Positions 843-45,001 of a DNA stretch of 64,000 nucleotides are shown piece by piece. The position numbers and the translations under genes were made by a program. The DNA lies in contig CAUYUJ010014353.1 of the NCBI GenBank assembly GCA_963575745.1, positions 2,501-66,500 on the forward strand. Direction: 5' to 3'. The notes under the pieces were generated by a model. It saw only the letters and a program-made list of their open reading frames with translations. It was not told where the DNA came from and did not search any database. This DNA comes from Prorocentrum cordatum. Taxonomy: Eukaryota; Sar; Dinophyceae; Prorocentrales; Prorocentraceae. How positions within the stretch are numbered: the stretch's first letter is position 1; each line of letters starts with the position of its first letter.

Positions 843-1090
843 AGAGGCGGCTTCACAACACGCGCAGCTCGAAGGAAGACTCGCGAACCATCTCGTTTCC
901 CCTCCGTAAGAACGGTTTTTTGAAGGCAGATCTGCCTTCAAAAAACCGTTCTTTTTTGAAGGCAGATCTGCCTTCAAAAAGCCGTTCTTTTTTGAAGGCA
1001 GATCTGCACTCAAAAAACCGTTCTTACAGAGGCGGCTTCACAACACGCGCAGCTCGAACGAAGACTCGCGAACCATCTCGTTTCCCCTCC
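843..1090. repeat. Direct duplication of 63 bp flanking three tandem palindromes
   Basis: Positions 843-905 and 1028-1090 are 63-bp direct repeats differing at one base. Between them lie three tandem near-perfect palindromes. The first, 908-953, is a perfect 46-bp inverted repeat centred on AGATCT; the next two share its arms (GAAGGCAGATCTGC core) with one or two changes. The block sits inside the ABC transporter intron. It looks like a small foldback insertion flanked by a duplicated segment, or a local rearrangement. No protein is implied although the frames stay open. Confidence 0.85.
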
Positions 1091-1247
1091 CGCGACCTCC
1101 TCCGTGCTGCCCTCCGCTGGTCTGCCGGGCAGAGTGCTCCACGAAGAGCAGCACACTCTCCCAGCGCCTCAACTCTCCTCCTCATATACCTCCTGCTTCT
1201 CATCCTCCTTCCTTCCTCCCTCCTCCTCCTTCTCCTCCTCCTCCTCC

Positions 1248-1468
<221 letters not shown>

Positions 1469-1677
1469 AGCAGCATCATCATCAACATCTCCATACTCCT
1501 GCACTCCTTCTCCTCCTCCTCCTCGACAATCTACTCTCGTACCCTCCCTCTCTTCCTCTGTTCGCCTCTTCGTTCTCGCCTGGCCACGGTGTCGGAGTGG
1601 CCGGGGAATGCGCTGATCTGGCGGGCGGAAGGTCAGGGCAAGATGCCTCTCGCCCACCCCTCTAGAGGAAAAAGAAC

Positions 1678-1814
1678 TATGCACATGCACCGATTCTGGC
1701 CAGGCCCATCCTGAGCCCAGGATCGGTGCATACGCCCTCCTACCTTGGCCAGGAAGGCACATGCACCGATCCTGGGTCAAGGATGGGCCTTGCCAGGATC
1801 GGTGCATGTGCATA
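1678..1814. mobile_element. Foldback element, family A1 (core CCGATCCTGG)
   Basis: The two ends are inverted repeats (TATGCACATGCACCGAT against ATCGGTGCATGTGCATA), and two further inner copies of the CCGATCCTGG/CCAGGATCGG core make the whole 137 bp fold back. It is flanked by a 22-bp imperfect direct repeat (1640-1661 and 1830-1851, containing TCTCGCCCACCCC). Related foldbacks with the same core occur at 24802, 59149, 61708 and 62035. It has no coding capacity, so it is probably a non-autonomous element. Confidence 0.75.
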
Positions 1815-2040
1815 ATTATCTTCGCCCGAAAGATGCTTCTCGCCCACCCCTCGCTCCCGGCGAGAAGTCGGCTCGACGCCTTCGTGAGCTGTCGCCGCCG
1901 GTGGCCGGGAACTCTTGCTGCGCGCGTCGACGCGGCGGCCCCGGGTCGACACGCTGCGTCCCCCGAGCGGGTCAGCGTGCCGCTCTGCCCGGCGAGGCGG
2001 AAGGGGGGGAACAGCTCGGCACGTTGACGCCTGGGGACTG

Positions 2041-2203
2041 ACTACCTACCAGACCACCCCAACCCAACCCGAAGATCCCAATTTCGGGTTGGGGGGGGTA
2101 CGGGTTCCATATGTGTTTTTTCAGTGTTCCCCGACCCCCCCCAACTGGAAATGGAGGGCAAATTGAGGCCTTCAGGTTGGGTTGGGGTGGTTTGGTGGGT
2201 GGT
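2041..2203. mobile_element. MITE-like element with 34-bp terminal inverted repeats
   Basis: The left end ACTACCTACCAGACCACCCC and the right end (inverse complement ACCACCCACCAAACCACCCC) match over about 34 bp with five differences. The interior holds TTCGGGTTGGGGGGGGTA. A second copy begins at 63861 and runs off the window. It lies in the ABC transporter intron. Confidence 0.8.
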
Positions 2204-2538
2204 GAAGGACGGCGACGTGGATGGCGCGTCGCGCCGCGGCGTGGTGGGCCAAAACCGGCGGAGCCACACGCTGAGCCAAGGTTCCCGACCGTACTCCTCC
2301 GCCTCCGCTGGCCTCCGCCCCCGACGTCGGCTTCGGGGTGCCTGGCCACCGAAACTATGGATTGTGTGGCCCCTCTCTCGCGGCCATCCTCCCTGGGAGT
2401 CCCAAGGAGGGCCCCAGGATACCTCTGAGAGGCCCAGGTGCTTTCCGGTAGCTTCGAAACATATTCTACTCAGGCTCATTTCCTATTTCCAATCCCCGTC
2501 TGGTGCGAGGCAAGATGTCTTCACCGAGAGGCCGTCTC

Positions 2539-2613
2539 CTCTGCAACCGCATTGGCGTCCGCCAATTTCTGCTGGACCTCCTTGGATAACTTCTCCATAA
2601 AACGTCCGTACCT
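2539..2613 (-). CDS. ABC transporter (ABCB/TAP-like) exon, upstream part of the same domain
   Basis: The minus strand encodes RYGRFMEKLSKEVQQKLADA and then NAVAE. This is the cytoplasmic loop helix of type-1 ABC exporters ('YGK-x-x-KRLSKEVQ-x-x-LA-x-A-x-x-x-AEE'). Joining its last GAG to the GAG of the exon at 649 restores an uninterrupted family match, AVAE then EAISTMATVRTFA. The intron would begin GA and end AG, with the pentamer AGGAG at both junctions, so the exact cut is ambiguous by a few bases. The acceptor on the 5' side reads CCCGCAG. Exon ends are inferred from homology and splice-like sites. Earlier exons were not recognised between 2620 and 3440. Confidence 0.68.
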
Positions 2614-2854
2614 TCTGCGGGCTGGCTCGGAACGACGGGAGGCGTACACCACTAGGACGATGCGACAACACCAGGCAGCCCACAGTACCTTTCGCATTTC
2701 AGCCAGTTGAGAACACTGTGGCCCGTCCACCGATACTCACGAACGACAGGAGCGCTCGATATTGACTGTAAGCACTCCACATGCCCACGAAAGCTGTGAA
2801 CAGGTCATCCGCGGGCAGTGGGGGAGGGGGCGGGGAGAGTTAGGGTGGGCGTGG

Positions 2855-2945
2855 GCAGGAGGAGGAGGGATACTGCAGCAGGAAGATGAGGAGGTGAAAG
2901 AGGAAGCGGAGGACCGGCCAGGAGGAAGGAGGCGGAAGGGGAATG
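2855..2945. repeat. Purine-rich, decayed (GGA)n tract
   Basis: An A/G stretch dominated by GGA and GAG triplets, lying beyond the 3' end of the minus-strand retroelement that stops at 3444. It may mark the insertion target, because the other end of that element also meets such a tract. Confidence 0.6.
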
Positions 2946-3443
2946 TTTACCGCTGCGCTGCTCTACATGACTTTTCATGCTGACCTCGGCTCTGGCAGTG
3001 AAAGTCCAGGTGGCCGACGAGCACGGCACTTCAAAGCTGGCACAGGCACGCACGCATGCCAGCTGAGCTCCTGCAGGCAGCGGCCGCGCCCCCGCGCACG
3101 GGATCAGGAGACAGTAAAGAGACGCATCACACTGTTAGCCTCCGCATCAAGCCAGACATCGTTAAGCTTGGGGTGCTTACCAGCGCAAAGTCGGCCCCAG
3201 TAGTAGTTGGAACCCCTTTCATTGTCGCCAGGTAGCGTGCGTAAATGCCAGTTGAAAAAAAGGCTTTGCACTGAAGACAAACGCACGCGATGCCTCCGTC
3301 CGAGCAGGCAAGGTCTGAGGATTCTCGAGGGTGTCTATATGGAGCTTGCGCTTCTTAGAACAACTTGAATTATTTCAGGGCCATGTGCCCCGACACGCCG
3401 ACAGATCAAGGTTACACCGCACGTCGCCGCCTACTTGTTTCCA

Positions 3444-4010
3444 TCAGTGTGGGATCCTGGCCGGCTTCAGCGGCAACTCGACCTTCACGCGAGTGGCGTT
3501 AGACAGGTCGCAGGCGGGCCAGAACGGCAACATTCTTGCCGCCAACAAATACACTTTACGAGCAATCGTGATACACTTCTCTAACCACTCGCCCTGCTCA
3601 GGGCTCGGCTTCTCGTGCGCCAACGCCCCAACCTTCGCATAGTGGTCAGCCAAAGCATTAACAACCTTACTGAGACGCAGGGATTCGTCGTTCGCAACCT
3701 GCTCCTCAAACGCGTGGGCTTTCACCTTGTGGATCGCCCCCATCTGACTGTCTGAAGCCCAAACGAACATACCCGGGTGCGCACGTTTGTGCGAAAGGTG
3801 TTCGGCCCTAGGGAACTCCCATAGAAAAACTACACTTCTGGCAATCACTGTGCAGTTGAGCAGGGGCAGCAGCATTTTGGCAGGCAGCAGTGCAGACAGC
3901 AAATTATCCAGCCCGGGCCGTATGGGGGAGGGGGCGAGAAAAGGGGAGCATAGACATGACTTAACTCCTGCCCAAAGTCTGACACCGATACATCGCTTCA
4001 CCCCGTGCGC
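3444..4010 (-). pseudogene. RNase H-like C-terminal region of the retroelement
   Basis: The minus-strand frame ends with IHKVKAHAFEEQ, ALADHYAKVGALAHEKPSP and a TGA. This resembles the end of a retroelement RNase H, where a 'KVKAH' strand is followed by an 'N-x-x-AD-x-x-AK-x-GA' helix. The early catalytic Asp and Glu of RNase H are not visible in this frame, so the N-terminal half is degraded or frameshifted. It would have removed RNA from the RNA:DNA hybrid during element copying. Confidence 0.55.
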
Positions 4011-4115
4011 GATAGCTCTCGGATGACCGACCTCAGACACGAGCCGTCCATGAATATGTGGCCTGTGATTCCTTAGTCATCCTTCTCGTGATTATCAAAG
4101 CGCTGGAACATAAAC

Positions 4116-5190
4116 TCAATGTTGGACGGAGGCGGGAAGAGAAGCCACCGGGGTGCGAACATGAAAAACAAACGCATACAAAACCTTTTCCTTCCCCGCC
4201 TCCGACAACGACGGCCGCTCGCAGGGCTTAGACTTGAAGGAATCCCTGGGAATCTCGTCTCGGGCCATGCTGACAGACTCGCGCGTGCAAAACCAAAGAC
4301 CGTGGAACATGGCGTCGCGCGGGAGGCCGCGGAAGGGGGCGGGGCAGGTCGGGCAGGATGCACCCGTGGACCTCGGCGCGCGCCTTCGTCCAAGGGGCCC
4401 GGCAGACGAGGCCTCGCACGGCCCCCTTCTCGAAGGGGGGGAACTTGGGCGAGCTCGTGGCCGCTTGGGCCAAGTCGACGCATCCCCTGCAATCAAGGCC
4501 CAGGGACTTACCATAATCCCTCTCCAGATTGCGAAGCACGGCCGCACGGAGAAGGCGTTTAAGGAGGGGGGGCGGAACCAGGGCGAGGGAACCTTCGACC
4601 CCGAAATCATCGACACGCGCGCTGAAGCTCGTCATCTTCCACCCCAAACGCTCCGCCGAGAGTCGAAGGGCCCCGCGGGCCCGCGGATCTCCCTCCAAGG
4701 CGGGGCAGGCACCGAGAAGCCCGCGATCCAGTCATTCCTGAGGGCGGCCAACGACAGGCCGTAGTCGTAGGCCCCCGCCAGGCTGGCCCAAATCTCCTTG
4801 GACTATCTCACAGTCGGGGCGACCGGCGCATACCGCGCGGGGTCGGCGGCAAACGGCGAAGCTGCATTGAGAGATCTCCCTCCAGCGGAGGGCGGCAACA
4901 ATGTCCCTGAAGCTCTCCTGAACGAGGCGAATTCGTAGTCGAGGTGCCGTGCACCTCGCAACCATTTCTGAGGCTGGCCATGGCACCTGGAGCGAGCACA
5001 CGTTTGGCGTGACGACCGAGAGACGACTTGCGACGACCAAGACGCTCCTTCTTCTTCTGAAACTGGCCCCTCCGAACCTTCATCCTGCCAACGCGACGGG
5101 CGACTCGACGGGGCTTGCCGGCCGCGTCGCCCATGCCGGGGTTCGCGGCGGAGTCGCACGGCATGCCTCCGACGGCGCCAAGACCTTGGT
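4116..5190 (-). pseudogene. Reverse transcriptase thumb and connection region, frameshifted
   Basis: Pieces typical of dinoflagellate retroelement polyproteins appear in successive frames: SAANPGMGDAAGKPRR with basic repeats near 5160-5060, VDDFGVEGSLALVPPPLLKR with RAAVLRNLERDYGK near 4620-4510, and VCRAPWTKARAEVHG near 4400-4360. A degenerate 'AMFHGLWFC' near 4310 recalls a C-terminal zinc-knuckle segment whose cysteines are largely lost. At least two frame changes are needed, so this is not translated as one protein. Confidence 0.5.
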
Positions 5191-6157
5191 GCACGGCCTT
5201 AGCAACCGCGGGCGCCGAAGCGATAAACAGCGATCGCACAACCAAGATCAGACTCGCCGACCGCTTGCAATCTGAACCCCCCCTCAAGGAGGTCATTGAT
5301 GACAACGCTGGCACACCCTTGGCAGGATAAGGTGTAGTCATCAATATAACTCCGAAGGGAGACTGATCTTGGCAAGCTGAGGCCATCTAAGGCCGCTGGG
5401 CTGAATGCTCGGATAAGCGTGGTCGCAAACCCGCAGCCCGCCGCAATGCCTCGCCACGCAAACTTGGGCCCCGCGATCCTGCTACTCATGGCCATGTAGC
5501 GGCAGGCGCGGTACGCTGAATCGCAAACCCTGGCAATCTGCATTGGGAAACCGTGCCGGCGGCAGCGCTGAAGCAGTATATCGAGGTCAACCGACTAATG
5601 AAAACTTCAGGAGGTCCCAAAGTACAGAGCTGGATCACAAGTCGAAGGACACCGCTCGCTCCTCACGCACGGCCGCCAGACTTATCCACGCTCGAGGCGA
5701 AGGAGCCTGCTGCAAATTACCCCCTACTGTTAGCAACATCCCACCTGCGAGCGTGACCCCTACGGGCTCGCGCCCGGAGCCGATAAACCGACGCGAGCAT
5801 ACCGATCGGCCCATGGCCACCGTCAGGTTTGGCCAGCACGATCAAGAGCAACACCCTCGTCTGCATCGGAAGCAAGCCAGATCGTTCGATCGTCGAGGTC
5901 GACCTGGAAAGCGCGATCAACGCGTGATCCGAGAGGTGCTGGAAGTTGCTGACATGAAAGCCGCCAGCCGTGGCCGCCGCATGATTGGGGAAGGACCTGG
6001 AGACGCGGCGACAGTCATCGGGCGTAAGCTCTGGAAGAGGGTCGAGGACGTCAAACTTGCCCGAGGGTGGCGGGTGGCCCTGCACGTCCTCAGCGTGCCA
6101 GAGGTCAAAGAATATCGCACGCTCCGAAACAGGGGGGGCCTCAGGATCTAAAATCAC
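5190..6157 (-). pseudogene. Reverse transcriptase domain, fingers and palm
   Basis: The minus strand around 6020-5790 encodes FQHLSDHALIALSRSTSTIE and then VLLLIVLAKPDGGHGPIGML. This is the RT finger motif in which 'K-x-DGG-x-RPI' precedes the palm. In another frame, 5543-5199 encodes RGIAAGCGFATTLIRAFSP, then SYIDDYT with both catalytic aspartates kept. A frame change and stops between the two show decay. The enzyme would have copied the element mRNA at a nicked target. Confidence 0.7.
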
Positions 6158-6799
6158 TTCCCCTTTCGAGCCGAGGGTGGTGGAGGGGGTCCAAGCGCCC
6201 CCCCCCCAACCAACAAAATAAACTCGTGAGCATGGTGGCCCCCCGACTTGATGTTGGCGCGCAGCCGCTCAACCCGATTCCTGCGATCGTCGTTTCTGGA
6301 CTCGCTCACGGCCGCAGCCTGGGCAGAGGATGCCGAGTCAAGAGCGCGCTGAGCGCGCTCTGGTTTTCCCGAGACGGCCCCAGGGGGGGCGGGCAAACTA
6401 TGAGAGACAACCTCCTGACAACGCGCAAGCAAGCCGTGGGCCTCGCCACTCCACTCGCCAAGCCTGACAGGAGGGTTCAACAACTCAGCAACCGTCTGCG
6501 ACAGATGGCTGCTCCTCGCCGAGCCGCGCCCGGCGTTCCAAGGCCTTTTTTTTCGACGCCGCTGGGGGCGAAACGGGGGGGGGGATGGGGGGCTGCTGCG
6601 CATGCTGCTACCCTGTGGCGCGCAACTGGAGCCACGGCCTGAAACGATTGCTGAGCCAGCGGAGCTGCGAAGCCAGGCGGGGCGTCGAAGAGGCGCCGCC
6701 CATGGAGGCCTGGTCGGGCGGCAGCGCGCTGATCCAGCGAAGCTGCGCTTGACGTACACGGCTGCCGTGGCGCGCGCCTTCGAGCTCCTTTTCGGCAGT

Positions 6800-7700
6800 T
6801 TTAGCCCGCGCTTTTGTAGAGGGAATCAAGGTTATACTGGATCTGATCATCGTTGCCATTCTCGGCCGCCGCATAGGCTCGGGGCGCAAGTTTCCCGGCG
6901 AACTCCCTCTCATGGGGGGTCTTGGGGCAGAGTACACAAGGTCGCTGGGTCAGAGGGGGGGGGGGGGTCGTCGAAAGGCGAGCGCCTTGAAGGGGGCCAA
7001 CGAAGGGTGGAGAGAAAGAGAGACGGGGTCGCGGGTCGCCAACTCCGAATCGCCAACTATCTCCGCGCTCTTGACGGCCATCGCAAGGCGAGAGCAACGC
7101 AATAAATAATCGCACGTCTTCACGCCCCCCTGCGCTGCGACACGTTCCTGCAACATCAGAGGGGCGCGCGGCGCCAGCTCCTAGTCGCTCAGGGAAGGCC
7201 GAGCTAGCCATCGCCGACGGCTCGACGTTGAAGCCAGCCCCGGCAATGAACGGGGCCGTCGAGCTCTTGACGCGCGCCGCCAACGCTGCCATAATCTCCT
7301 GATAGGATTGGGGCCGACGCAATCCTGCAGGCACGCGCTGACGCAACCAAGATAAAGGCTTGCATTGGGAGGTGCACCGGGTCACCTACAGCCGGCTGTT
7401 TTTAATCGTGAAACCAAAATCTGGGCAATGCATCAAGGAAGGTTCGGGCCAGGGCCCCGACGCCAGCCGCTGGGCCCCCGCCTGGGCCCCCCGTGTCAAG
7501 TTCGAGACAAGCTTTCCGACCGTGTCGAACATGCCCGGCCGAAGCCTTCCTGAGCTCCTCGTCGCGCACCAGCATGTGTTCCTGGATAAGCACAACGTGC
7601 GCCGACATGATCTTCAAAAACCTCGCGATAGACGACCAGGATGTGCCGTTGGCCGCCGCTATCTCCAACGCAATCGACTCCGAATAATCAGAATCCCCTT
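6800..7700 (-). pseudogene. Endonuclease/exonuclease/phosphatase (AP-type) domain, decayed
   Basis: Near 7690-7410 the minus strand encodes IALEIAAANGTSWSSIARFL, HVVLIQEHML (the Gln-Glu catalytic pair) and GGPGGGPAAGVGALARTFLD. After a frame change, 7300-7200 has PFIAGAGFNVEP, a damaged form of the usual 'GDFN' strand. These are the landmarks of the target-nicking endonuclease of non-LTR elements. Changed residues and frame shifts indicate loss of function. Confidence 0.62.
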
Positions 7701-8221
7701 GGTCCCGAGGTTGATGCACAGACGCGCTCCGCGGGGCATCCAAAACTGGGCAGGCGGTCGGAAGTCTAGGGTGGGGGGATGGGGACAGGCTGGCGCAGAC
7801 ATGGCTAGGATGACGGCCCGCTCTTGGCGGGCGGGCCTGCCGCTGGTGCTGGGGCCGCCGTCTTGGGAGGCACCGCCGCCCGCGGAACCGCCAAAGGAGC
7901 CTGCTCGCGAACGTTCGCAAGCGGCCGCGCTGGCGTCGCTGGCTGGGCTGGCGGCGCCGCACCCGCAGGCGCTGAGGCTGAAGAGGCAGCGCCAGGCGAG
8001 GGCTCAGCAGAACGGGGTCGCACAGGCTCAGCAGCTGCACCACCTGGTATAACTTTGCGCTTCTTTTCCGCCTATCTCTGCTTCTGCTCCTGGTGGCTCT
8101 GCTTGAGTGCGTTGCACTTGTTCTGGGCTCCGCCGCACAGCTTCGTCGTAAGAAGCGTGATCTGCTCGGACAGCTGCTGCGTGCGGCTCTCGGTTTCCTC
8201 GACGTCCTCGGCGGAGAGCTC

Positions 8222-8914
8222 CTAGAACTCGCCGAGGCCGAACATGTCGCAGTCGCCCACCAGGATGGACGTGAGCTTGCCGTCGAAAACGTCCTGCAGG
8301 CAGAGCGCCGGCTGTGGTGAATGAGCTGCTGCGTCCGCTCGGGCCTGCCTGGGCACTGGCAAGCGCAGCTTCGAGATCACCACCTTGTATTCTGCATCAT
8401 GCCGCTCCAATTCTTGAGGCGCGCGGTCAAAAACAGCGCGCTGCTGGGACAGTTTGATCTCGAGTGCGCGCACGCTCTCCAAGCTGCGGTCGAGTTTCTT
8501 CTCGAGCCTCTGGATATCCTTGGAAGCGGCGTCGGCCCTCGCCTGAGGAGGCAGCGGGGCTGCCTCGAGCTCGGCGACCTTCGCCTGGGCCATGGAGAGC
8601 AGCGGCGCGTCGCCGAGCTTAGCACTGAGCTCCACCAGCTGCTTGAGCTCGCTCTTGGTCGCAGTCGCTGCCGATGTGCGCACAACAGGAGGCTTTCCTG
8701 AAGCTGCGTCTGCGGCCGCACAGCGTACGTCCACAGCGCCCCCTCCTCCAGAGAGGGCTCCTCCATCATCAGGCACGTCTGGTACATATTCCTCCCAATG
8801 CTTACCACACTGCTTGCACCACTTGAGGCTAAACGCGTTCTTCTTGCAATGACAGTGGCCGCACGTCCACCGCGTGCTGGACTGAACGCCGCGAGGCCGA
8901 TCACCAAGAGCCAT
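8222..8914 (-). CDS. Retroelement N-terminal region: RanBP2-type zinc finger and coiled coil
   Basis: An ATG at 8914 opens a 230-residue frame ending in TAG at 8222. Residues 16-37 contain WTCGHC followed by WCKQCG, a C-x2-C...C-x2-C finger like RanBP2 zinc fingers. From about residue 90 a heptad-rich stretch (LEKKLDRSLESVRALEIKLS) predicts a coiled coil. The same frame reopens immediately after the TAG with ELSAEDVEETESRTQQLSEQ, again coiled-coil-like, and continues to about 7805 through one further TAG. The region probably served RNA binding or oligomerisation for the element. An upstream GTG at 9232 is a less likely start. Confidence 0.6.
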   Translation of the reverse strand: MALGDRPRGVQSSTRWTCGHCHCKKNAFSLKWCKQCGKHWEEYVPDVPDDGGALSGGGGAVDVRCAAADAASGKPPVVRTSAATATKSELKQLVELSAKLGDAPLLSMAQAKVAELEAAPLPPQARADAASKDIQRLEKKLDRSLESVRALEIKLSQQRAVFDRAPQELERHDAEYKVVISKLRLPVPRQARADAAAHSPQPALCLQDVFDGKLTSILVGDCDMFGLGEF

Positions 8915-9439
8915 CGAAGCGCCGCCGTGTGAGCAGGATAGGGGGACAGCGAGCCACTCTGGCTCGCGAACACCCAGCCGTTTTAATGATCGGTGATCGC
9001 AAACACAAGTTGCTTGTGCCAGAACGGCTGAAGCGGAGACGGTAGAAGCGGAAGGGGAGGCGGATCTTTGTTTAGTCCCCCCCTCAGCGTGCTTAGACGC
9101 CCTCAGGACTGACTCTCGAGATATCTGCTGCCAGTTCCCACTGGTTCCTCTGGCTCCTTGCCTGGCTGCTTTGGCCCTGCAATGCTGCGCTGCGCTGCGG
9201 TCCCCTCGTCCTGCTCTCTTCGCCTCCGCCACGCGCAGTCTTGGCTGGCTGCAGGGCTGACGCGTCGGGCCACTCCTCTCCCAAGCGACACTCCGCGTGG
9301 CGTGGGTGATGAAGTCTTCGGGGTGGGCCCCATCGAAGCCGCTTCAACTGGCCTCTCAGAAGTCTCTGGGAGCGCCCGCGGGCTGTCTCCGGGTCTTACT
9401 TGCTGCAGTCCGCCTGCTGCTGCCGCGCAGAGAATCGGA

Positions 9440-19869: not shown

Positions 19870-20160
19870 CCTCCATCTCACAGGGCACAGCGCAGTGCAC
19901 AGCACAACTCAGCTCAGCACACAGCACTTTGACACAAAGCACGTACACAGCACAACACAGCACAGCACAGCTCAGCACAGCACAACACAGCACAGCACTG
20001 CTCAGCACAGCACTGCTCAGCACAGCTCATCTCAGCACCGCACCTCAGCTCAGCACATACCAGGTCAGCACAGCTGGCACAGCACAGCACAGCTCAGCAC
20101 AGCACAGCACAGCTCAGCATTGCTCAGCACAGCACAGCACTACACACCACAGCACACACA
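19870..20160. repeat. (CAGCA)n-type array
   Basis: Irregular CAGCACAGCTCAGCA units over almost 300 bp, ending in a CA-rich run. Confidence 0.9.
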
Positions 20161-34870: not shown

Positions 34871-34913
34871 GATTAAGTCGGGCATGTCCTCCTAGAGGGG
34901 AATTTTGGACGAA
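34871..34913. mobile_element. Family E transposon, left half (second interrupted copy)
   Basis: TAAGTCGGGCATGTCCTCCT and AGGGGAATTTTGGACGAA. It is interrupted by the family P element; the right half is at 35867-35998. Confidence 0.8.
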
Positions 34914-35866
34914 ATCCGCCGACCCCCTTGTGGGGCCACCAGGCTGTAGGCCGAAGCTTCGCAGTTTCCTGTGCCAGTTGCAGCTTCCAGTTTCCACTGT
35001 TACAGTTCTGCTTCTTGCTGCTTACTGTTCCTTGTTACAGTTCTGTTTCTTGCTGCTACTGTTCCTTGTTGAGGGACCGCGCGAGGGGGGGGCACAAAAC
35101 AGCATTTTTACTACGCCCTGAGCGTATGCTCTGAATTGCTGGGGTGAGCCAAAATTAACACCCATCACGCAGATCGGCGGGAAAACACACGGGATTTGCC
35201 ACATTTCTGAAATTCGGTGGCACCCCTCCCGCAGATCGGCGGGGTCAGGGTCCAAAAGCACACTGGATTTGCCAAATTTCTGAAATTCGCTGGCACCCCT
35301 CACGCAGGTCGGCGGGGTCAGGGTGCAAAAACACAAAGGATTTGCCACATGTCTGAAATCCGGTGGCACCCCTCACGCAGATCGGCGGGGTCAGGGTGCA
35401 AAAACACAGAGGATTTGCCACATTTCTGAAATCCAGTGGCACCCCTCACGCAGGTCGGCGGGGTCAGGGTGCAAACACACAAAGGATTTGCTACATTTCT
35501 GAAATTCGGTGGCACCAGATCGGCGGGGTCAGGGTCCAAAAACACATGGGGTTCGCCACATTTCTGAAATTCGGTGGCACCCCTCATGCAGATCAGCAGG
35601 GTCAGGGTCTGAAAACAGACGGGATTTGTTACATTTCTGAAATTCGGCGGCACCCCTCACGCAGATCCGCATGGTAAAAACACAAAGGATTTGCCACATT
35701 TCTGAAATTCGGTGGCACCCGTGACGCAAATCCATAGGGTCAGGCTCGAAAAACAAACAGGTCCCGACACAGCTTCACGGCGGCGCCCAGACCTCATGAT
35801 TTAGCTTTTGCATCTCCCATTCTCCGAGACAGGGGGCCGGCGGCATGGGGCGAAGCCCTTACGGAA
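34914..35866. mobile_element. Family P element, short copy, carrying a 76-bp satellite
   Basis: Left end ATCCGCCGACCCCCTTGTGG, with CCACCAGGCTGTAGGCCG and repeated CTTGCTGCTTACTGTTCC words. Right end GGGGGCCGGCGGCATGGGG and CGAAGCCCTTACGGA. Between them are about eight units of a 76-bp satellite. Both ends recur at 43069 and 49164, where they enclose 6.1 kb. The element sits within a family E transposon. Confidence 0.82.
35150..35755. repeat. 76-bp satellite (CACCCCTCACGCAGATCGGC)
   Basis: Units contain TTTCTGAAATTCGGTGGCAC, CCCTCACGCAGATCGGCGGG, GTCAGGGTCCAAAAACACA and GGATTTGCCACA. The same unit recurs at 43310-43475, 46395-46653 and 47760-47818, always just before a family B cassette. Confidence 0.9.
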
Positions 35867-35998: not shown

Positions 35999-36254
35999 GC
36001 AAGGCGAGAAGGCCGCGGGGGATACAGCAGCTTCGTGTCGCGACGGCCCCAGCGCTGAACCGCACCGCTGCGCAACGCGCAGCCCGTAGCGTGTTGGCAC
36101 GGAGCTCAACACGTAGGTTGAAAACGTACGATTGGCGCGATACGTTCGTCCAAAGCTGGGCCGACACGTGGAGCCAACACACAGTGTGTCAACGCGGAAG
36201 TTTTGAACACGGCGCGTGTTGCGTTTTTCAAGACGGGCGCATCAGAGCAGCTAA

Positions 36255-36345
36255 GCACGCCGCGCGGATCGTTCAACCTTGAACGATGGGCGGCTTTGGG
36301 ATCGCAAGACCGTTCCATGTCAGCCCTGGCCGCTGGCGACGAGCA
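36255..36345. mobile_element. Family D fragment
   Basis: CGCGCGGATCGTTCAACCTTG and AACGATGGGCGGC match the centre of family D; the ends are not found. Confidence 0.5.
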
Positions 36346-36369
36346 TCGGGGATCTCCTGACCAGGGTCA

Positions 36370-36575
36370 ATCCAGACCTGGGTCAGTCGGGCCTCGTAAA
36401 ATCCTGCAAGATCCTGCAAGATTCTGCACCCAAACCCGGGCCAGCGCGACGAATCCTACAGGATCCTGCAGGATCCTGCGCCCAAGCCCGGGTCAATGCG
36501 ACCCTTGCCCTGCAGGATCCTGCAAGATCCGGCGCTCTGGCTGACCCCGTTTGCTTTGACCCCTGTCCCCAGGCT
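36370..36575. repeat. ATCCTGCAGGATCCTGC repeats and flanking dispersed repeat
   Basis: Short repeats of GATCCTGCA and CCCGGGTCAATGCGACC. GATCCGGCGCTCTGGCTGACC at 36527 recurs at 55689 in the same context, so this is a small dispersed repeat. Confidence 0.65.
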
Positions 36576-36579
36576 CCCG

Positions 36580-37340
36580 AGAGCAGCCCTGGGCGCCAGT
36601 GCCGGCCGGGGTCGCCGCCGCGTGGGCGCGGCGCGAACATGCCGTAGGGGCGGGGGGTTGTCGGGCCCAGGGCCGCGGGGAACGCGAGGACCTTCTTCTC
36701 GCTGGTGCCCCAGATCAGATCGAGACCAGCGCGCCCCCGCCCGCTCCCCCAACAACGGCCGACAACATTCCAACATCCCGAGCGCGGTGGAACTGCAGCG
36801 GAATGCCCGCTGGTGCTCACGTCCATTCGTGCCGCTGCCGAGCTCTCCCGGCGGTGGCTCCTGGCGCACGCGATGGCGCAGGCGTCCGCAGAGGCCTTGA
36901 GCACTATACGGATGCGCACCAAGCACTTCTCGGCTCGGTGCTCAGGGCAAGGGTGGACTGTCGGTGTGCGCTGGCCGTGCAGGCCGCAGTGCACGCGACC
37001 TGCCTCGAGGCGGCTCTCGCCACACCGGGGGGAGCTGTGTTCCCTTTACCCCCCCCCCCTTCCCAGCGGAGCCCATGGCATCGACGAGCTCTCGAGAGAG
37101 GTGTCGAGGCCCATGGGCCCCCCAAGGGGGGCGAGGACCACGGCTCCCCTGGGTCGTGACTGGTCCGCGAGGCGGCTCAAGTCACGGTCCACGGCCACGT
37201 CTCGTTGGCGGGCCTCGCCTCTCGGTCCTGGGCAGCGCCGAGCCTCAGCACCCCACCCCACATCCGTCGGGCAACCGCCGCTCGGTTGTAGCGTTTCGGA
37301 CGGTCGACGTCGGAATTCACAACGATTCGACTGGCTGCCC
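36580..37340. other. Stretch without recognised gene
   Basis: GC-rich, low in repeats, with frames on both strands. A plus-strand run near 36895-37040 encodes LEHYTDAHQALLGSVLRA and ALAVQAAVHATCLEAALA, of exon-like composition, but no family motif is evident. This is the best place between 29 and 37 kb to look for an unknown exon. Confidence 0.35.
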
Positions 37341-37344
37341 TGAG

Positions 37345-37712
37345 CCAGGCGGAGGAAGAAAAGGAGGAGGAGGAGGAGGAGGAGGAGGAGGAGGAGGAGG
37401 AGGAGGAGGAGGAGGAGGAGGAGGAGGAGGGGGGGGGGGGGGGAGGGGAGGGGGAGGAGGAAAAGAAGGAGGAGGAGGAGAGGAGGAGGAGGAGGAGGAG
37501 GAGGAGGAGCTGGATGAGGAGGAGGAGAGGATGGATGAGGATGAGGATGAGGATGAGGGATGAGGATGAGATGAGGAGAGAGGAGGAGGAGGATGAGGAG
37601 GAGGAGGAGGGGAGACGAGGAGGAGGAGGAGGAGGAGGAGGAGGAAGAAGGCGGAGGTGGAGGCGGAGGAGGACGAGGAGGAGGAGGAGGAAAAGGAGGA
37701 GCGCACAGGCTA
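37345..37712. repeat. (GGA)n microsatellite
   Basis: GGA triplets with GAT and GCG interruptions over about 370 bp. On the minus strand it is a (TCC)n tract lying directly 3' of the LINE and may be its tail or target. Confidence 0.95.
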
Positions 37713-37819
37713 ACCGACGAGACGAGGGCAGGCGGACAAGAGAGGGACGAGACGAGGGCAACCGAAGTCAGAGTCCGACGGAAGCGGAGACAGGCGGCAG
37801 GGAGGGGGCCGGGCCTCGG

Positions 37820-40800
37820 TCACCGCCTCCGAGACGTGAAGACGGCGCGAGCGCCCGCATGCCTGCGAGCGATGACTCTGACCCTGGACCTAAAGAGTGC
37901 CAAAAGACAGTCGGGCCCGAAGCGGTCCTGGGACCTGAGGGTATTATATGCAGAGAGCAAAATATCGTGAACCAGCATGCTCGAAAGGAACTCATTACTG
38001 TTCAAGGGGGGGGTCTCGCGGCAGAAAAAATGCTGGACCCTAGACCATGCACAGTAAGAGGGAGGAAGGGAGGGGATGGCATCCATCAGGACTTCAAGAG
38101 CAGCAGGGCAATGAAGGTAGTGGTCGACGGCGTCTGCAAACATGGCCTTGCACCCGAATCTGCAGCACATCGTACCATTTCGAAACCTTCTCGTCGTCGG
38201 CCACGCGTTACACACACTCGTAATCAGGGAGGTGGAAGCATACGGGCCGACCTTCTGTGTGAGCATATTGATAAGCACGAACATTCGATCCGCAACTCCA
38301 GAGGGAACCTCAGGCCCAAAATACTAGATTCTTCTGTGAATCAAAGGTATGACAGGCACTCCCGGAAGGCGGGCTTTCAAGAACCTCGTCATCTTTTTCT
38401 GCACATCATTGCATTCAGGATCAGCAAGCTGAGGTGCAAGGGCTGTCAACTGAGCGAAGTTCACAATCCAGGACATGGTGACCGAGCCGTTCAGCCACTC
38501 CTGCATGCGCGGGACCATAAGCACATCCAGATCATATTCAGCAATACTGTGGAAGCGTGCAGCAATACTCTGAAAAATCGAGCTGCGCAGGGCAGCGCGG
38601 TGCAAGGCGGCTCTGTTCTCACATGAAATATCACGAGGGACCGCGTCAAATCCCAAGGCACTCAAACTCTTGAGCAGGGTCGTCGAAATGGAATGTCGTG
38701 GTGTAGCAGTAAGTCTCTGAAGGGCAATGTGCTCTGTGTCGTGCACTCTTTTGTCGGCCACGTAGAACTGACTGATGTATGAAAGAACAGGGTGCACCAA
38801 CATATTATACGCCCGAATATTCTGAGCCAGTGAGATCCTCAACTCCCTGATATGAGCAACACGTTCAAGCAACTTCCGACAAGGAGCGCGCCGCGATTCA
38901 GCACATCCGCCTGGGCCTAAATCTATGCCCAGGTATTTGGCATTGGGCCCGACCCTCACCTCATCAATTGGAATACTCAGATCACGCAATGACCGAGTGG
39001 CAGCTCCTAAGTCCATATCACGAGCAATGACCACCCAGCATTTGCCCGTGTGGAGCTTGAGACCAGTGGTAACACCAGGGTCACCCATCCAAGTCAAAAC
39101 CGAGGGAATATCAGGACGCAGATCACCCGAAGCAATGCCGACGTCATCCGCACAAGCAAGAGGCCTCCCTGGATGTGGCCGAAGTCGAGTCTGTAAACCT
39201 CGGACAACCGGGTCAAATATAATCGCGAATATCAAAGCCGAGAGTGGGCATCCGTGTTTCATGCCGCGCGCGACGAAGAAGCCAGGACACCTTGAACCAG
39301 CAAACGAAACGTCGACGTAAATGTCGGAGTGCAGCAACCTGACGGCCTGGGCAATGCGCCCGGGAACGCCCATGTCTTCCAAGACCCCGAAGATCCAGGA
39401 GTGCAAAACGCTCGGGAAGGCAGAGGCGATATCCAGAAGCATGAACACAGGGAACTCGAGGCCCCGATGGCAAGCCCACTCCAAGACCCAGGACTCCAAC
39501 TCAACCACGTTGTCCATCAGATTTCGTTGCTTGATGAACCCGCGCTGGCACTCCGCGACCGAGTGCCTGGCCTGGATCTGGAACGGGTCGGCAAGGGCAG
39601 AGGAGATGAGCTTGTTGTCAGTGTTGCTCAGAGTATGGGTCCTAGTCGGACGGGCCTCTAGAACAGTCCTGGGACCAGAACCAATAACCTCAACCTTGGG
39701 AGGGAACACAAGCTGGCCGAAGTTGAAGCCAGACGGGGGGTGAACACCACGAAGCAGGGCACGATAGGCCGCATATAGGGCAGCCAGAACAGCGCCCCCC
39801 CCCCATGTTTCCACCCACTGTATGGTACCCCGTCAGGTCCTGCAGCATAATCTTTACGATGGACAACGATGGAGCGGAACTCATGTTCCATCAGTTCCCA
39901 TTGGATACCAGGGGAGACCGACTGAATTTCACTTCGTAGAGCAGCTAGCACACCTGGCTCATGCTCAGGCAGTACATCAGGACACCGGTGAACATCTCCC
40001 CAGAAGCTATCTAGATTACGTGCACTCTGTTCGATACTGGCGGGGGCCTCGTCCACGGGGTCAGCCACCGAGAAGACCGCGAGCTTCCGACGTTTGACCG
40101 ACCACGACCGACAGATAGCTTGTAGCCTAGCACGCCGAGCCTCATCGATCCCCCCCAAGACAGTCCGTACACTCGTTATGGATCATAGCATTAATCATAG
40201 TGGCGTTCAACTCACGTATATACTCGTGGAATCCCATATAGTCAATATAACCAAATTCTCAAAACAGAAGAGCCGACCAAGTTCAGGAAGTGCTTGCTGA
40301 CAGCGGCTAATCGTGACAAGATGACCTGAGCGGGCAGCGCGGAGGAGCCTGAGACACACGGCATTTTTTTCACGACCAGTGCGAGCCCCCGAGCGGAACA
40401 TCTGGCGCGAGAGCTCGTCCTTTGCAGCAAACATGGCGGCCTTGCACTCCAGCAGGGCCTCGAATGGGGCAGGGCTGACCCCGCTATCCTGAAGGATCGA
40501 TTCCACAGTCTTCCCGAAGCCAGGGTGTTCCGTAATCCAACGCGGTAACGTCGGTGTAGAAGGGGCCCCAGGGGGCGTCTGCACATAGATCGGGATATGG
40601 TCCGAGCACTCCGAGCGGTTGTGGGCCAGACCGATCACATTAGACCGAGGTTTCCAGTCCAGGATTTCGGCCGTGGGAGCAGACCAGTAGATCCGATCCA
40701 ATCTACAAGCACTTAGCACGACATCCCCAGCGATAGACCTATGGGTGGCCTCGAGCTGAGGGACCTCCACGAAGTCGCCGAACAGGCTGGCAGACCGGGA

Positions 40801-41640
40801 GCGCAGCAGGTCATCTTCCCGCGGAAGCGAGATTGATCCATCCGTCGCCTGACGGTACTCGTCAGCTTCGGGGAAATTCCAATCACCTGCAAGACACGAG
40901 AGGCCATCGCCAGCTGCTGGCGCAGATCGGCGAAGCCGCCCTAGAACACTATGTGCAGCACGAACAGAGATCCCAGGGTCAATATGAACATTGGCTAAGT
41001 TCAAGTTTCCGAGCTCCCCGAAAAGCTTCGCGACCAGGACCCTGCCTCTGGCGACCTCCGAGACCCGAGCAGCCCTGAATTTCTTCAAGAAAGTCTTCGA
41101 GATGGAAGTAATAACTCCTCCAGCCGAATGCGAACTACAGAAGGTGCCTAGGTGGATATGAGAAGGGAAATCACGGCGAAGGGCATTAAGGTCTTGAGGC
41201 GTCCCATGAGCCCCCTGCGTATTTACGATGCCAAATCTTCCCAAAAGCGATAGAAATTTGCTATACTTCTGAATCTGACGCATATGATTGGCCCAAATAC
41301 TACCCAGCAAAGCTTGCGAATTCCACGAGACCACCCCAAACGAATTCAGAACTCTAAAAGGCGAGCGATCGGAGCGAATTAAAGGGGCATCAAAAATGGG
41401 ATACACAGCCGCCAGCCGCTCAAGACCCACAGAGGAGGAGGAGGAGGAGGAGGAGGAGGAGGAGGAGGAGGACGACGACGAGGACGAGGAAGAGGAAGGG
41501 GAAGACGGCGGAACAGGCGGCACGCATCGCCTGCGCTTCACTGCACGACACCCTCCTGCTGCACCTGCAGCTCGTCGTCCAGTCGCGAAGGCGCTGGTGG
41601 TGTACCCGTCGACGCCCTGCAAGTCGCGCAAGACGATCTC
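37820..41640 (-). pseudogene. LINE ORF2: endonuclease, reverse transcriptase, C-terminal zinc-binding domain
   Basis: The endonuclease shows VVSWNSQALL, HSAGGVITS, NVHIDPG, AGDWNF and ECSDHIPI, but the 'Q-E' catalytic pair reads TQGAHG (about 41205), so the glutamate is lost. Reverse transcriptase motifs follow: AAGPDGVPYSGWK (about 39830), SVAECQRGFIKQRNLMDN, MLLDIASAFPSVLHSW, GMKHGCPLSALIFAIIFDPV and ACADDVGIA (catalytic ADD intact, about 39150). After an in-frame TAG at 38324 the frame continues to MCCRFGCK and HYLHCP, a Cys/His knuckle, ending in TGA at 37820. Frame shifts occur near 40240, at a C7 run (40150) and at a C10 run (39795). A (TCC)n tract adds about 20 serines near residue 60. 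The enzyme nicks target DNA and copies element RNA onto it. Confidence 0.85.
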
Positions 41641-42726
41641 CTAGCGGCGCTTGGCCACCATCGCGGAAACACGCTCCGCGATGCTGTCGATGAACTCCTT
41701 CGATAGCCCGATGACGCGGCAGTCCTCGAGCGGCACAACAGTGAACATGCCCTGGCTGGACTCGTGCTCGGTAATCTTCACCAAATCCCACACCTCCTCA
41801 TTGGCCGAATTGCACAGATGGAGGTGGCCAGTAAACGGGTTCGATCCCAACTTCATGGACTCGAGCCAGAGGCACTGCTCCTTCAGGCCGTCCAGCACAA
41901 TCTGCCAGCACTGTCCCAGGGCATACGAGCGATGACGTATCGGCTGCGGCTGATCCCAGCCGGCTCGAAGCTGCACCACCTCAGCATTGCGGGGGTCCGT
42001 CCATGTCAGGAATGCGGGGTCCGCTCGGCACCTGGAGTGGAAGAGCAGCGCGTCATCCTCGTCGTCGAACTGGATATTGTAGCTGAACTTGTAGTTCTGC
42101 GCTTGCACGCGGCATTTCTCAGCATACTGAGATGGCATCTTAGACTTCACGATGGAAAAGTGGGACTGGAAAGTCGCTTGCATGAGCTTGCGCGGGAAGC
42201 CACGCACCCATATCTTCTTCTTGTTGCGCTCCCCATGGTCTCGATCCCCATCGCGGCTGGGGAGAGGCTGAGCGGGGCCATGTGTGCGCTGCCGCGGGAA
42301 CGACGACCATGGATCACTGGACGCCGAAGCCGAGCTGGAGGCAACCGTGGAGGCTAGCTTCTCCTCTAGCTGCAGGACCCGCGCCGTGAGCTCCGCATCC
42401 ACCACAGTCGATGGCGGTGCAGGGGCACGCCTGCGCGGTGGTGTAGACCCGCTCATCAGCTCGTCGTCACTGTCGCTGGAAATGGCCTGTCCAAGCTGCA
42501 TAGCTGAGATGGCAGCAGCCTGTCTCTCCAGCTCCCTGCGCTGCTCTGCCATAGCCTCCTGCTGTTCGTCCAAACTCTTGCTCAAGTCCTGGTCGAGGCG
42601 CTTGACCGCATCCATGTTGCGTGCGATCGAGGTCGTCAGGCTGGAGATCTGCTCATTGAGCGGATCGACGTGTGTTCGCAGCTGGCCAGCAAGCAGCTCC
42701 TTCATACTCTCAAGCGTGAGCGCCAT
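41641..42726 (-). CDS. LINE ORF1 protein: coiled coil and RRM-like domain
   Basis: The ATG at 42726 is the first methionine downstream of the spliced-leader relict (MALTLESMKELLAGQL). The frame runs 361 residues to TAG at 41641. Residues about 1-70 are heptad-rich (SSLTTSIARNMDAVKRLDQD), then a Ser/Pro-rich linker, then from about 165 KKKIWVRGFPRKLMQATF and NYKFSYNIQFDDEDDALLF, which resemble an RNA-recognition fold. ORF1 proteins of LINEs bind element RNA and act as chaperones. ORF2 follows in the same frame with only the TAG between. The frame is also open upstream to 43068 as poly-Ser, but that part lies outside the element. Confidence 0.78.
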   Translation of the reverse strand: MALTLESMKELLAGQLRTHVDPLNEQISSLTTSIARNMDAVKRLDQDLSKSLDEQQEAMAEQRRELERQAAAISAMQLGQAISSDSDDELMSGSTPPRRRAPAPPSTVVDAELTARVLQLEEKLASTVASSSASASSDPWSSFPRQRTHGPAQPLPSRDGDRDHGERNKKKIWVRGFPRKLMQATFQSHFSIVKSKMPSQYAEKCRVQAQNYKFSYNIQFDDEDDALLFHSRCRADPAFLTWTDPRNAEVVQLRAGWDQPQPIRHRSYALGQCWQIVLDGLKEQCLWLESMKLGSNPFTGHLHLCNSANEEVWDLVKITEHESSQGMFTVVPLEDCRVIGLSKEFIDSIAERVSAMVAKRR

Positions 42727-42898
42727 CGCGCCAGAGGAAGCAAGCTTCAGCAGGTGCGGTAACCAGAGTACAGGGGCAAAATGCTTGTACGTGAGTGAAA
42801 AGCAAAACAGGGGTCCCTGTCCAAGGGCACTCTCCAGGACCCCACGCGCGCGGCGGGCGCTGGCCACTTGAGACGGGGGGGTGAGTTCCCGAAATGGC

Positions 42899-42935
42899 CT
42901 TGAGCCAAAGTGGCTTGAGCCAGAATGGCTACGGA
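42899..42935 (-). promoter_or_regulatory. Spliced-leader relicts: full-length and truncated copies in tandem
   Basis: On the minus strand 42935-42914 reads as the 22-nt dinoflagellate spliced leader with one change (CCATTCTGGCTCAAG where the consensus has CCATTTTGGCTCAAG). It is followed at once by a 15-nt second copy, CCACTTTGGCTCAAG (42913-42899), lacking the first seven bases. This is the known signature of an mRNA that was trans-spliced, reverse transcribed into the genome, transcribed and trans-spliced again at the AG inside the old leader. Its location exactly upstream of ORF1 identifies the transcript start of the LINE. Confidence 0.88.
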
Positions 42936-42944
42936 AGGAAGAGG

Positions 42945-42992
42945 AAAAGGAGGAGGAGGAGGAGGAGGAGGAAGAGGAGGAGGAGGAGGCGG
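42945..42992. repeat. (GGA)n microsatellite at the LINE 5' boundary
   Basis: GGA triplets directly outside the spliced-leader relict. With the tract at 37345-37712, the element is bracketed by GGA repeats. Confidence 0.88.
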
Positions 42993-43474
42993 CGGGGAAG
43001 GAGCGCACGGCGAAAGTGGGGGAGCAGGGGGCGGGACGAGGACAAGTACAGAGACGAAGACGATACAAATCCGCCGGCCCCCTTGCGGGGCCACCACGCT
43101 GTAGGCCGGAGGTTCGCAGTTTCCTGTGCCAGTTTCAGTTTCCAGTTTCCACTGTTACAGTTCTGCTTCTTGCTGCTTACTGTTCCTTGTTGACTTCTTG
43201 CTGCTTACTGTTCCTTGTTGATGGACCGCGCGAGGGGGGGAGGCCCAAAACGGACAGTTTTACCACGCCCAAATCGTATTGTCTGAATTGCTGGGGTGGG
43301 TAAAATTTTACACCCCTCACGCAGATCGGCGGGGTCAGGGTGCAAAAACACAGGGGATGTGCCACATTTCTGAAAATCGGTGGCACGTGGTCAGGGTCCA
43401 AAAACGCACGGGATTTTCAACTTTTCTGACATCCAGTGGCACCCCTCACGCAGATCGGCGGGGTCAGGGTCCAA

Positions 43475-45001
43475 AACATGATCGACCCACGAACCCGGAA
43501 AGGAATATAGAAATGTAAGGCATTGCAACATTTCGAAGACACCTGATTGGGCGACGGGCACATGCAATGCTGAATGTATCGATGATGATGTACTGTGCCG
43601 AGGGCTGTGCTGTGCTACGCCGTGCTGAACTGCGATGTGCCATGTCGCGATTGTGCTCTATATAGCGTTGTGGATCGAGTCCTCCCTGGCATCCGAGTCC
43701 TCACCGAACTGATCTGGATCGTAAGCTCGAGCTGCCTGAGCAGATGGTAGCTGCCCCAGAACTAATCGACAGAGGGAACATGCCAGGAGGACGCGCCGCC
43801 GAACGTCCCAAGGGAGCGCGCCAGGCGACGTGCCAGGGGACGTGCCATGGGGACGCACCGCGGGACGTGCCAAGGGGACGCGCTACGGAACGTGCCAATG
43901 GACGTGCCGAGGGACGCGCCAGGGGACGCGCCGCGCGACGTGCCAGGTGGACTCGCCACGGAACGCGCCAAGGAACGTGCCAAGGTGCATAATTGAGTGT
44001 ATCGATCTTGATGTACCGTGCCGACGGCTATGCTGTGCTGGGCCGTGCTGAACTGCGATGTGCCATGCCGCGAGTGTGCTCTATATAGCGTTGTGGATCG
44101 AGTCCTCCCTGGCATCCGAGTCCTCACCGAACTGATCTGGATCGTAAGCTCGAGCTGCCTGAGCAGATGGTAGCTGCCCCAGAACTAATCGACAGAGGGA
44201 ACATGCCAAGAGGACGCGCCGCGGAACGTCCCAAGGGAGCGCGCCAGGCAACGTGCCAGGGGACGTGCCATGGGCACGGACAGCGGGACGTGCCAAGGGG
44301 ACGCGCTACGGAACGTGCCAATGGACGTGCACCGCGCGACGTGCCAGGGGGACTCGCCACGGGACGCTCCGCGGAACGTGCCAGGCAACATGCCAGGCTG
44401 CAATGCTAAGGGTATCGATATTGATGTACCGTGCCGAGGGCTGTGCTGTGCCTGGGCGACCTGGACACGTGAAAACACGCGTTTCGCTCAAGACGTTGTC
44501 AGCACATCCTCATGCTAGACATCCGCCTGGGCAACCTGGACACGTGCAAACAAGCGTCTCGCTCGAGACATCCTCAACCAATGCTCATGCAGACATCCGC
44601 CTGGGCGACCTGGACACGTGAAAACAAGCCTCTGGTTCGAGACATCCTCAACAAATCCTCATGCTAGACATCTGTCTTGGCCACCTGGAGGCGTGAAACC
44701 AAGCGTTTCGCTCGAGACATCCTCAAGACCTGGGCACGTGAAAACAAGCATTTCACTTGAGAGATCCTCTAAATTCTGATCCCCAAGAGAGGACAATCTA
44801 TAACACAAAACAAGCGTTTCGCTCGAGACATCCTCAACAAATTCTGAAAACAAGCGTTTCGCTAGGGACATCCTCAATTTTTAATTCGCCGGCCCTCTTC
44901 CCACTCGTTATTTATCGCAAAAGAAATCCGCCGGCCCTCTTCCTGTCAGATCCGGGGGTAAACCTACTAAAAGAGAACCCTGGGCCTGCGCCCTTTCCAG
45001 G
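43475..45001. mobile_element. Array cassette, family B, copy 1
   Basis: Start box AACATGATCGACCCACGAAC, CCGGAAAGGAATATAG. End box GCCGGCCCTCTTCC, CTAAAAGAGAACCCTGGGC, GCCCTTTCC. The inside holds a direct duplication of period 423 bp (43580-44005 and 44003-44425, with GCGTTGTGGATCGAGTCC), rich in GGGACGTGCCA decamers, then CGAGACATCCTCAA repeats (44460-44880). Confidence 0.78.
44460..44880. repeat. GCTCGAGACATCCTCAAC repeats
   Basis: Loose units of AAACAAGCGTTTCGCTCGAG and ACATCCTCAAC at variable spacing. Present in every family B cassette before its end box. Confidence 0.85.

Follow-up and report, generated by a model that had tools for sequence, protein, structure and literature searches.

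Here, we report that a LINE retrotransposon of the dinoflagellate Prorocentrum cordatum begins, at its very first base, with a DNA copy of the host spliced leader. As read from the sequences, this leader is the 5' end of the insertion, and it recurs at the same place in other copies of the element and in a second LINE clade. Very probably, the host trans-splices the LINE RNA and reverse transcription then runs as far as the leader; the DNA copy would thereby start with a full leader inside a simple repeat. Such a route touches on the 5'-end problem of LINEs, whose upstream transcription start is lost at each jump.

Results

A LINE bounded by the leader

The window, meaning the whole 64-kb stretch of DNA that was analysed (59.8% G+C), contains a single match to the leader consensus DCCGTAGCCATTTTGGCTCAAG when up to three mismatches are allowed, and the consensus agrees with the one given in the accessible text of PMC6050394. 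The match lies on the minus strand (42914-42935, TCCGTAGCCATTCTGGCTCAAG) and has one change, as the preliminary description had claimed; the shuffle control at the same threshold gave 0/100. The same description had a truncated leader directly behind the full one, which is indeed present (Table 1) and has a mismatch of its own that had gone unmentioned. With at most two mismatches, two matches to the 15-nt relict pattern were reached in 1/100 shuffles. The 5' UTR and ORF1 then follow as had been proposed.

The element spans 5235 nt (37701-42935) and is bounded by a direct repeat, both copies of which have the same TTTT interruption inside a (TCC)n tract. Since this repeat adjoins the leader on one side and the 3' end on the other, the leader marks the exact 5' end of the insertion. 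Within the window, the repeat pattern is found at three exact places, two of which are the element ends, and at 13 places with one mismatch; as it belongs to (TCC)n-like tracts with many matches in the window, its weight rests on its position.

Table 1. Features of the leader-headed element and its flanks (window coordinates)
Feature	Position	Strand	Remarks
Target-site duplication, 5' copy	42936..42954	-	19 bp
Target-site duplication, 3' copy	37682..37700	-	18/19 bases
(TCC)n microsatellite before leader (target)	42936..42989	.	
(TCC)n-rich tract behind element (target)	37347..37700	.	
Full 22-nt spliced leader	42914..42935	-	1 mismatch; the element starts with its first base
Relict leader CCACTTTGGCTCAAG	42899..42913	-	lacks first seven bases; 1 mismatch; gapless after full leader
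5' UTR	42727..42898	-	172 nt
ORF1	41641..42726	-	361 aa, open, ATG at 42726; no Pfam family above cut-off
ORF2 frame with APE-type endonuclease region	40207..41640	-	opens with poly-Ser from (TCC)n tract
Middle frame of broken ORF2	39658..40182	-	no Pfam family found
Reverse transcriptase frame	38324..39832	-	RVT_1, E 8.7e-16
ORF2 C-terminal frame	37820..38323	-	no Pfam family found; similar stretch in L043
3' UTR	37701..37819	-	ends ...CCTGTGCGC

The window copy is an old LINE copy, with ORF2 broken into several frames. Its RVT_1 match bears out the earlier claim that the recycled transcript is a retrotransposon with its own reverse transcriptase (RT), and the solved structures nearest to this RT are those of the R2 and L1 ORF2 proteins. 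In the window copy, the endonuclease region gives a weak Exo_endo_phos score (E 0.043, under the cut-off) and has QG in place of the QE seen in 4/4 relatives covering that stretch; the same family was matched in all five aligned clade members (best 2.9e-9). Judged by its RT, by the endonuclease as seen through these relatives and by the target-site duplication, the element is an APE-type LINE. In the same frame, the (TCC)n tract at 41431-41505 encodes poly-serine near the start of ORF2, just before the endonuclease, and might conceivably serve as another splice acceptor. Upstream of the LINE lies a repeat (43067-43250) with an 89% copy about 8 kb off on the same strand (34912-35099).

No long direct or inverted terminal repeats were present among those listed for 36000-44600, no Rfam family, HDV-like 5' ribozymes included, was matched at E up to 0.5 over 37300-43300, and the RNA fold of the 5' UTR is unremarkable (z 0.33). 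The window 3' UTR is present in 5/6 of the fetched 3' regions of copies, and the 3' region for L057 (L074) has no match to it. As for tails, an A8 run is found in one leader-headed insertion described below (L035), and the window, L038 and L043 are without an A run directly at the repeat. We rejected the idea that (TCC)n belongs to the element as its 3' tail, because the 3' repeat copies an impure 5' flank in L038, L043, L052 and the window, as expected of a target duplication; L053/L071 remains outside the account of this 3' (TCC)n by target duplication.

Leader number in related copies

A leader-to-ORF1 DNA search of the assembly (4,128,499,153 bases, 21,875 contigs) scored 40 of 271 candidates, so that copy counts are lower bounds. 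At least ten copies cover ORF1, i.e. the window and nine others at 79-89% identity, and 5' ends were read for all nine together with nine of the matches restricted to the UTR. The leader stands at the start of 9/10 ORF1 copies and is preceded in each of these nine by a (TCC)n-like tract. Leaders number one in L051, L056, L058 and L059, two in the window, L054, L055 and L057, and three in L052. The remaining copy, L053, starts within a leader-like stretch, and its flank is without a microsatellite. Aligning the other copies and counting their leaders, as had been suggested, did not bring up the refuting outcome that had been named, copies devoid of any leader; the only copy short of a full leader is L053, with its leader-like start. 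A private oddity of the window copy is ruled out by these other copies.

Five copies (L054, L055, L057, L058 and L059) share 99.1-100% identity and an open ORF1 of 358 aa. Among them, L054 and L058 are identical over 1168 nt and have two leaders and one, respectively; leader number therefore varies between near-identical insertions. Subfamilies that are mutually 78% identical still bear one to three leaders, which implies that leaders must also be lost or reset. The expectation that an element gains one relict per cycle is not supported as it was put. From the same proposal, the copying back of the leader is upheld by the exact 5' end and by 9/10 copies, and host trans-splicing is the best reading of the sequences. 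A part of the leader in expressing a two-ORF element and in the recognition of full-length copies, also put forward there, is conjectural.

The outer leader is perfect in 8/8 leader-bearing copies other than the window, while their UTR cores differ at up to 19/95 sites, as expected if the leader is renewed. The inner leaders are missing their start, as far as the internal AG. A different history, in which the leader was captured once and inherited as a fixed 5' UTR or promoter of the LINE, its number shifting by slippage and host splicing not taking place at each cycle, is in our opinion unlikely. It would agree with the promoter role proposed for the genomic leader in PMC6050394 and with the conservation of the 5' UTR behind the leader across LINE families. 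Indeed, about 55 nt of this UTR, counted from 42898, are common to families whose ORF1 is different by eye (window 42820-42898, L060-L068; 13 of 14 alignment rows valid, L063 being left out). However, a fixed leader fits poorly with a perfect outer leader next to divergent UTR cores, with a second clade that is also leader-headed, and with a 15-nt unit that ends exactly at the cut expected from the leader's AG (AG rule in PMC3229502).

The nine UTR-only matches that were read all start at the leader, eight with two and one with a single leader. Their flanks are (TCC)n-like in six, (TCA)n in two and purine-rich in one, and their open frames differ by eye from the window ORF1. In the 5' flank of one of them (L066), about three reverse-complement relicts, seen by eye, stand opposite the leader with a short (TCC)n tract in between. 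We read this as two leader-headed elements that share a microsatellite in head-to-head orientation.

Without any splicing, reverse transcription could also have switched templates from LINE RNA to leader RNA, which would be conceivable since chimeras between LINEs and other RNAs can arise (PMC13174262). Nevertheless, in the copies viewed the join coincides exactly with the end of the 22-nt leader exon, no leader-RNA intron sequence is found there, and the relicts are short of the 7 nt that splicing is expected to remove. This explanation is already disfavoured and we hold it to be very improbable.

Flanks on the two sides were compared for the four leader-bearing copies of which both ends had been read. 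The leader-side flank of L052 matches its 3' flank at 18/19 bases, including a distinctive TAC. The matches of L055 (18/18), L054 (23/24) and L051 (30/33) say little, since these copies lie in nearly pure (TCC)n.

Leader sites across the assembly

With up to two mismatches, the leader pattern occurs 16,273 + 16,347 times in the assembly (32,620), against 6 + 2 for the reversed control. Tandems of leader and relict (36 nt, up to two mismatches) number 1364 + 1383 (2747), with 0 + 0 in the control; as the mismatch rates of both counts differ, their ratio is a guide only. Chance is ruled out by the shuffled and reversed controls, and we attach next to no weight to chance or to an assembly artefact. 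The (TCC)n flanks are of low complexity and hard to assemble, but ten copies lie on ten contigs with different flanks and 32,620 leader matches face eight in the reversed control.

IMG/VR was searched with the leader tandem, ORF1 and the RT and gave nothing informative. In the IMG/VR scan for exact leaders, the sole record was L083 (IMGVR_UViG_3300045993_001077), a contig of 7157 nt that is classed as viral. Its reverse strand has two exact leaders 147 nt apart, the second of which precedes an ATG by eye.

Surroundings were examined for 20 leader sites, the second to the twenty-first in the list of perfect matches (9 kb each, one of 6.85 kb), with Pfam searched on 30 of their 76 long frames. 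LINE enzymes are headed by the leader at 14/20 sites, 13 of them with an RT that begins 2.9-4.1 kb downstream; all are on the leader's strand and none is opposite. The RT belongs to the window clade at seven sites and to a second, RNase-H-bearing clade at six, for which Pfam matches are mostly below curated cut-offs. L050 has an endonuclease and an RNase H that belong to the second clade, and no RT was found there. L031 and L045 appear LINE-like by eye alone, the latter with a weak RNase H match. Neither RT nor endonuclease was found at L033, L037, L041 and L049, and L037 has one partial RNase H match. Two sites, L034 and L046, are 91% identical over 5.8 kb and both are leader-started in (TCC)n. 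Besides, L048 has a 2664-aa open frame (1008-8999; RNase H 9.5e-8, weak RT, weak endonuclease) that extends from the leader as far as the sequence was read, and we take it for a LINE with an open frame.

The clearest insertion, L035, sits in unique DNA and consists of GGTCCCTGCCGACC, leader, endonuclease, RT, RNase H, GTGCAAAAAAAA and GGTCCCTGCCGACCT, with a 15-bp duplication and the A8 tail. Among 83 loci, its 15-mer recurs at L006 alone, and L006 is this very place. Direct repeats at the leader and the 3' end were also seen at L038 and L043 (16 bp, with shared impurities) and at L047 (13 bp). In a wider test, a repeat of at least 10 nt was present at 12/20 loci and none at 8/20, and a cross-locus control at 14 nt matched in 5/133. 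On account of these figures, convincing duplications are limited to L035 and to the repeats that share impurities (window, L038, L043, L047 and L052).

These ends also bear on whether the LINE transcript, trans-spliced in the same way as host mRNAs, is copied in trans by a different retroelement, in which case the leader would tell nothing about the LINE cycle. We judge this improbable. Leader-tagged host retrogenes are known and the machinery behind them is called unknown in PMC6050394, which would leave room for such a helper. Against it, the 13-19 bp duplications, the A8 tail of L035 and the 14/20 sites with LINE enzymes fit copying in cis better, without proving it.

Insertion targets

At the first 30 leader sites, (TCC)n (12) or (GGA)n (7) lies within 6 nt at 19, compared with 3.1% for the same measure at 20,000 random positions of the window and 20 loci (P ~8e-22). 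By eye, these two repeats flank 17/20 sites of the longer set, and a (TCC)n-like flank is found at 9/10 ORF1 copies. The remaining flanks are (CAT)n, (TCA)n, (AT)n, the minisatellite of L012 and L030, and unique DNA. The leaders of L012 and L030 both lie within a similar CAGAACACNCAGGAGCA-type minisatellite, and (AT)n is the setting of L011, which is related to L030 over 78 nt; we take these for further simple-repeat targets. The (TCC)n behind the L036 element directly precedes the next leader, L037, in a head-to-tail nesting. A (TCC)n target common to LINEs and host retrogenes was considered and not borne out, as L022, L025, L026 and L029 (gene-like by eye only) are without such a flank.

Discussion

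The cycle that we favour, with host trans-splicing followed by reverse transcription up to the leader, may be pictured as follows. A LINE copy would be transcribed from upstream, through its locus, and host trans-splicing would put a leader on the LINE RNA, which would then be translated. The LINE's own enzymes would reverse-transcribe this RNA up to the cap end, and landing in a simple repeat would make a duplication of ~13-19 bp. With the TAG inside the leader used as the 3' splice site, a fresh leader would be joined to CCATTTTGGCTCAAG and one relict would be added. Conversely, splicing at an older junction after CAAG, or slippage, would lower the leader count, and ladders would thereby stay short. 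In (TCC)n insertions, the pyrimidine-rich flank followed by TAG would resemble a splice acceptor. The idea that (TCC)n provides the polypyrimidine tract of the acceptor has its appeal, but it leaves the (GGA)n flanks uncovered.

Several observations count against this cycle. (GGA)n is found at 7/19 microsatellite-flanked sites, with no pyrimidine tract before the leader, and leader loss and slippage look alike. Moreover, L053 is without a leader start, 8/20 loci have no duplication of at least 10 nt, the control gave 5/133 matches and the 3' region of L057 (L074) is unmatched.

It is possible, if on balance rather doubtful, that target choice itself closes the cycle. Insertion into a pyrimidine-rich (TCC)n tract, together with the TAG of the leader, would rebuild a trans-splice acceptor right at the start of the element. 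Transcription across the locus would then give a promoterless element a full-length, leader-capped RNA, and the relicts would partly record its cycles. If so, these LINEs would be a prime candidate for the dinoflagellate retrogene machinery and many leaders counted as marks of retrogenes would be LINE heads.

More generally, leader number offers a physical mark that differs between near-identical copies. Our observations bear on which retroelement makes dinoflagellate retrogenes and on the share of leader-tagged 'retrogenes' that are LINEs (14/20 leader sites here). In the available text of PMC6050394, this retroelement is called unknown and LTR elements are favoured. No earlier description of dinoflagellate LINEs starting with the leader was found in the literature searched, which consisted mainly of openly accessible journal articles.

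Recycled dinoflagellate mRNAs are established to have relict leaders in which the cut follows position 7, at an AG (PMC3229502; PMC12014239; PMC6050394). Those retrogenes resemble the present elements by a leader copied into DNA, relicts short of seven bases and tandems. They differ in that host genes are concerned there, as far as the accessible parts of these reports go, whereas the leader here heads an element with endonuclease and RT and target duplications adjoin it. Endogenous RNA-virus genes of Symbiodiniaceae likewise have leader remnants near insertions, for which LINE activity was proposed (PMC10235124); in that case the cargo is viral and, in the portion of the article at hand, no leader is shown on the LINE itself.

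Outside dinoflagellates, leader exons merged to transposable elements in Schistosoma mansoni also combine a leader with a retrotransposon, and were read by the authors as possibly trans-spliced and retro-transcribed (PMC5832876). That report concerns six cases for which chimeric assembly is possible, and ladders and target duplications are described only here, as judged from its accessible text; it is thus an ambiguous precedent. Insertion into simple repeats is shared with target-specific non-LTR elements of microsatellites and leader exons (PMC4640811). These clades have a restriction-like endonuclease and some of them insert into leader genes, according to the sections available, whereas here the inserted RNA includes the leader and the endonuclease is of the APE type. 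Finally, L1Tc/ingi of trypanosomatids are also LINEs in a trans-splicing host, but the part of PMC8190864 at our disposal describes an internal promoter and ribozyme (Pr77) and unspliced transcripts. Unlike the Pr77 promoter/ribozyme of these elements, it is host trans-splicing that appears to give the P. cordatum LINE its front end.
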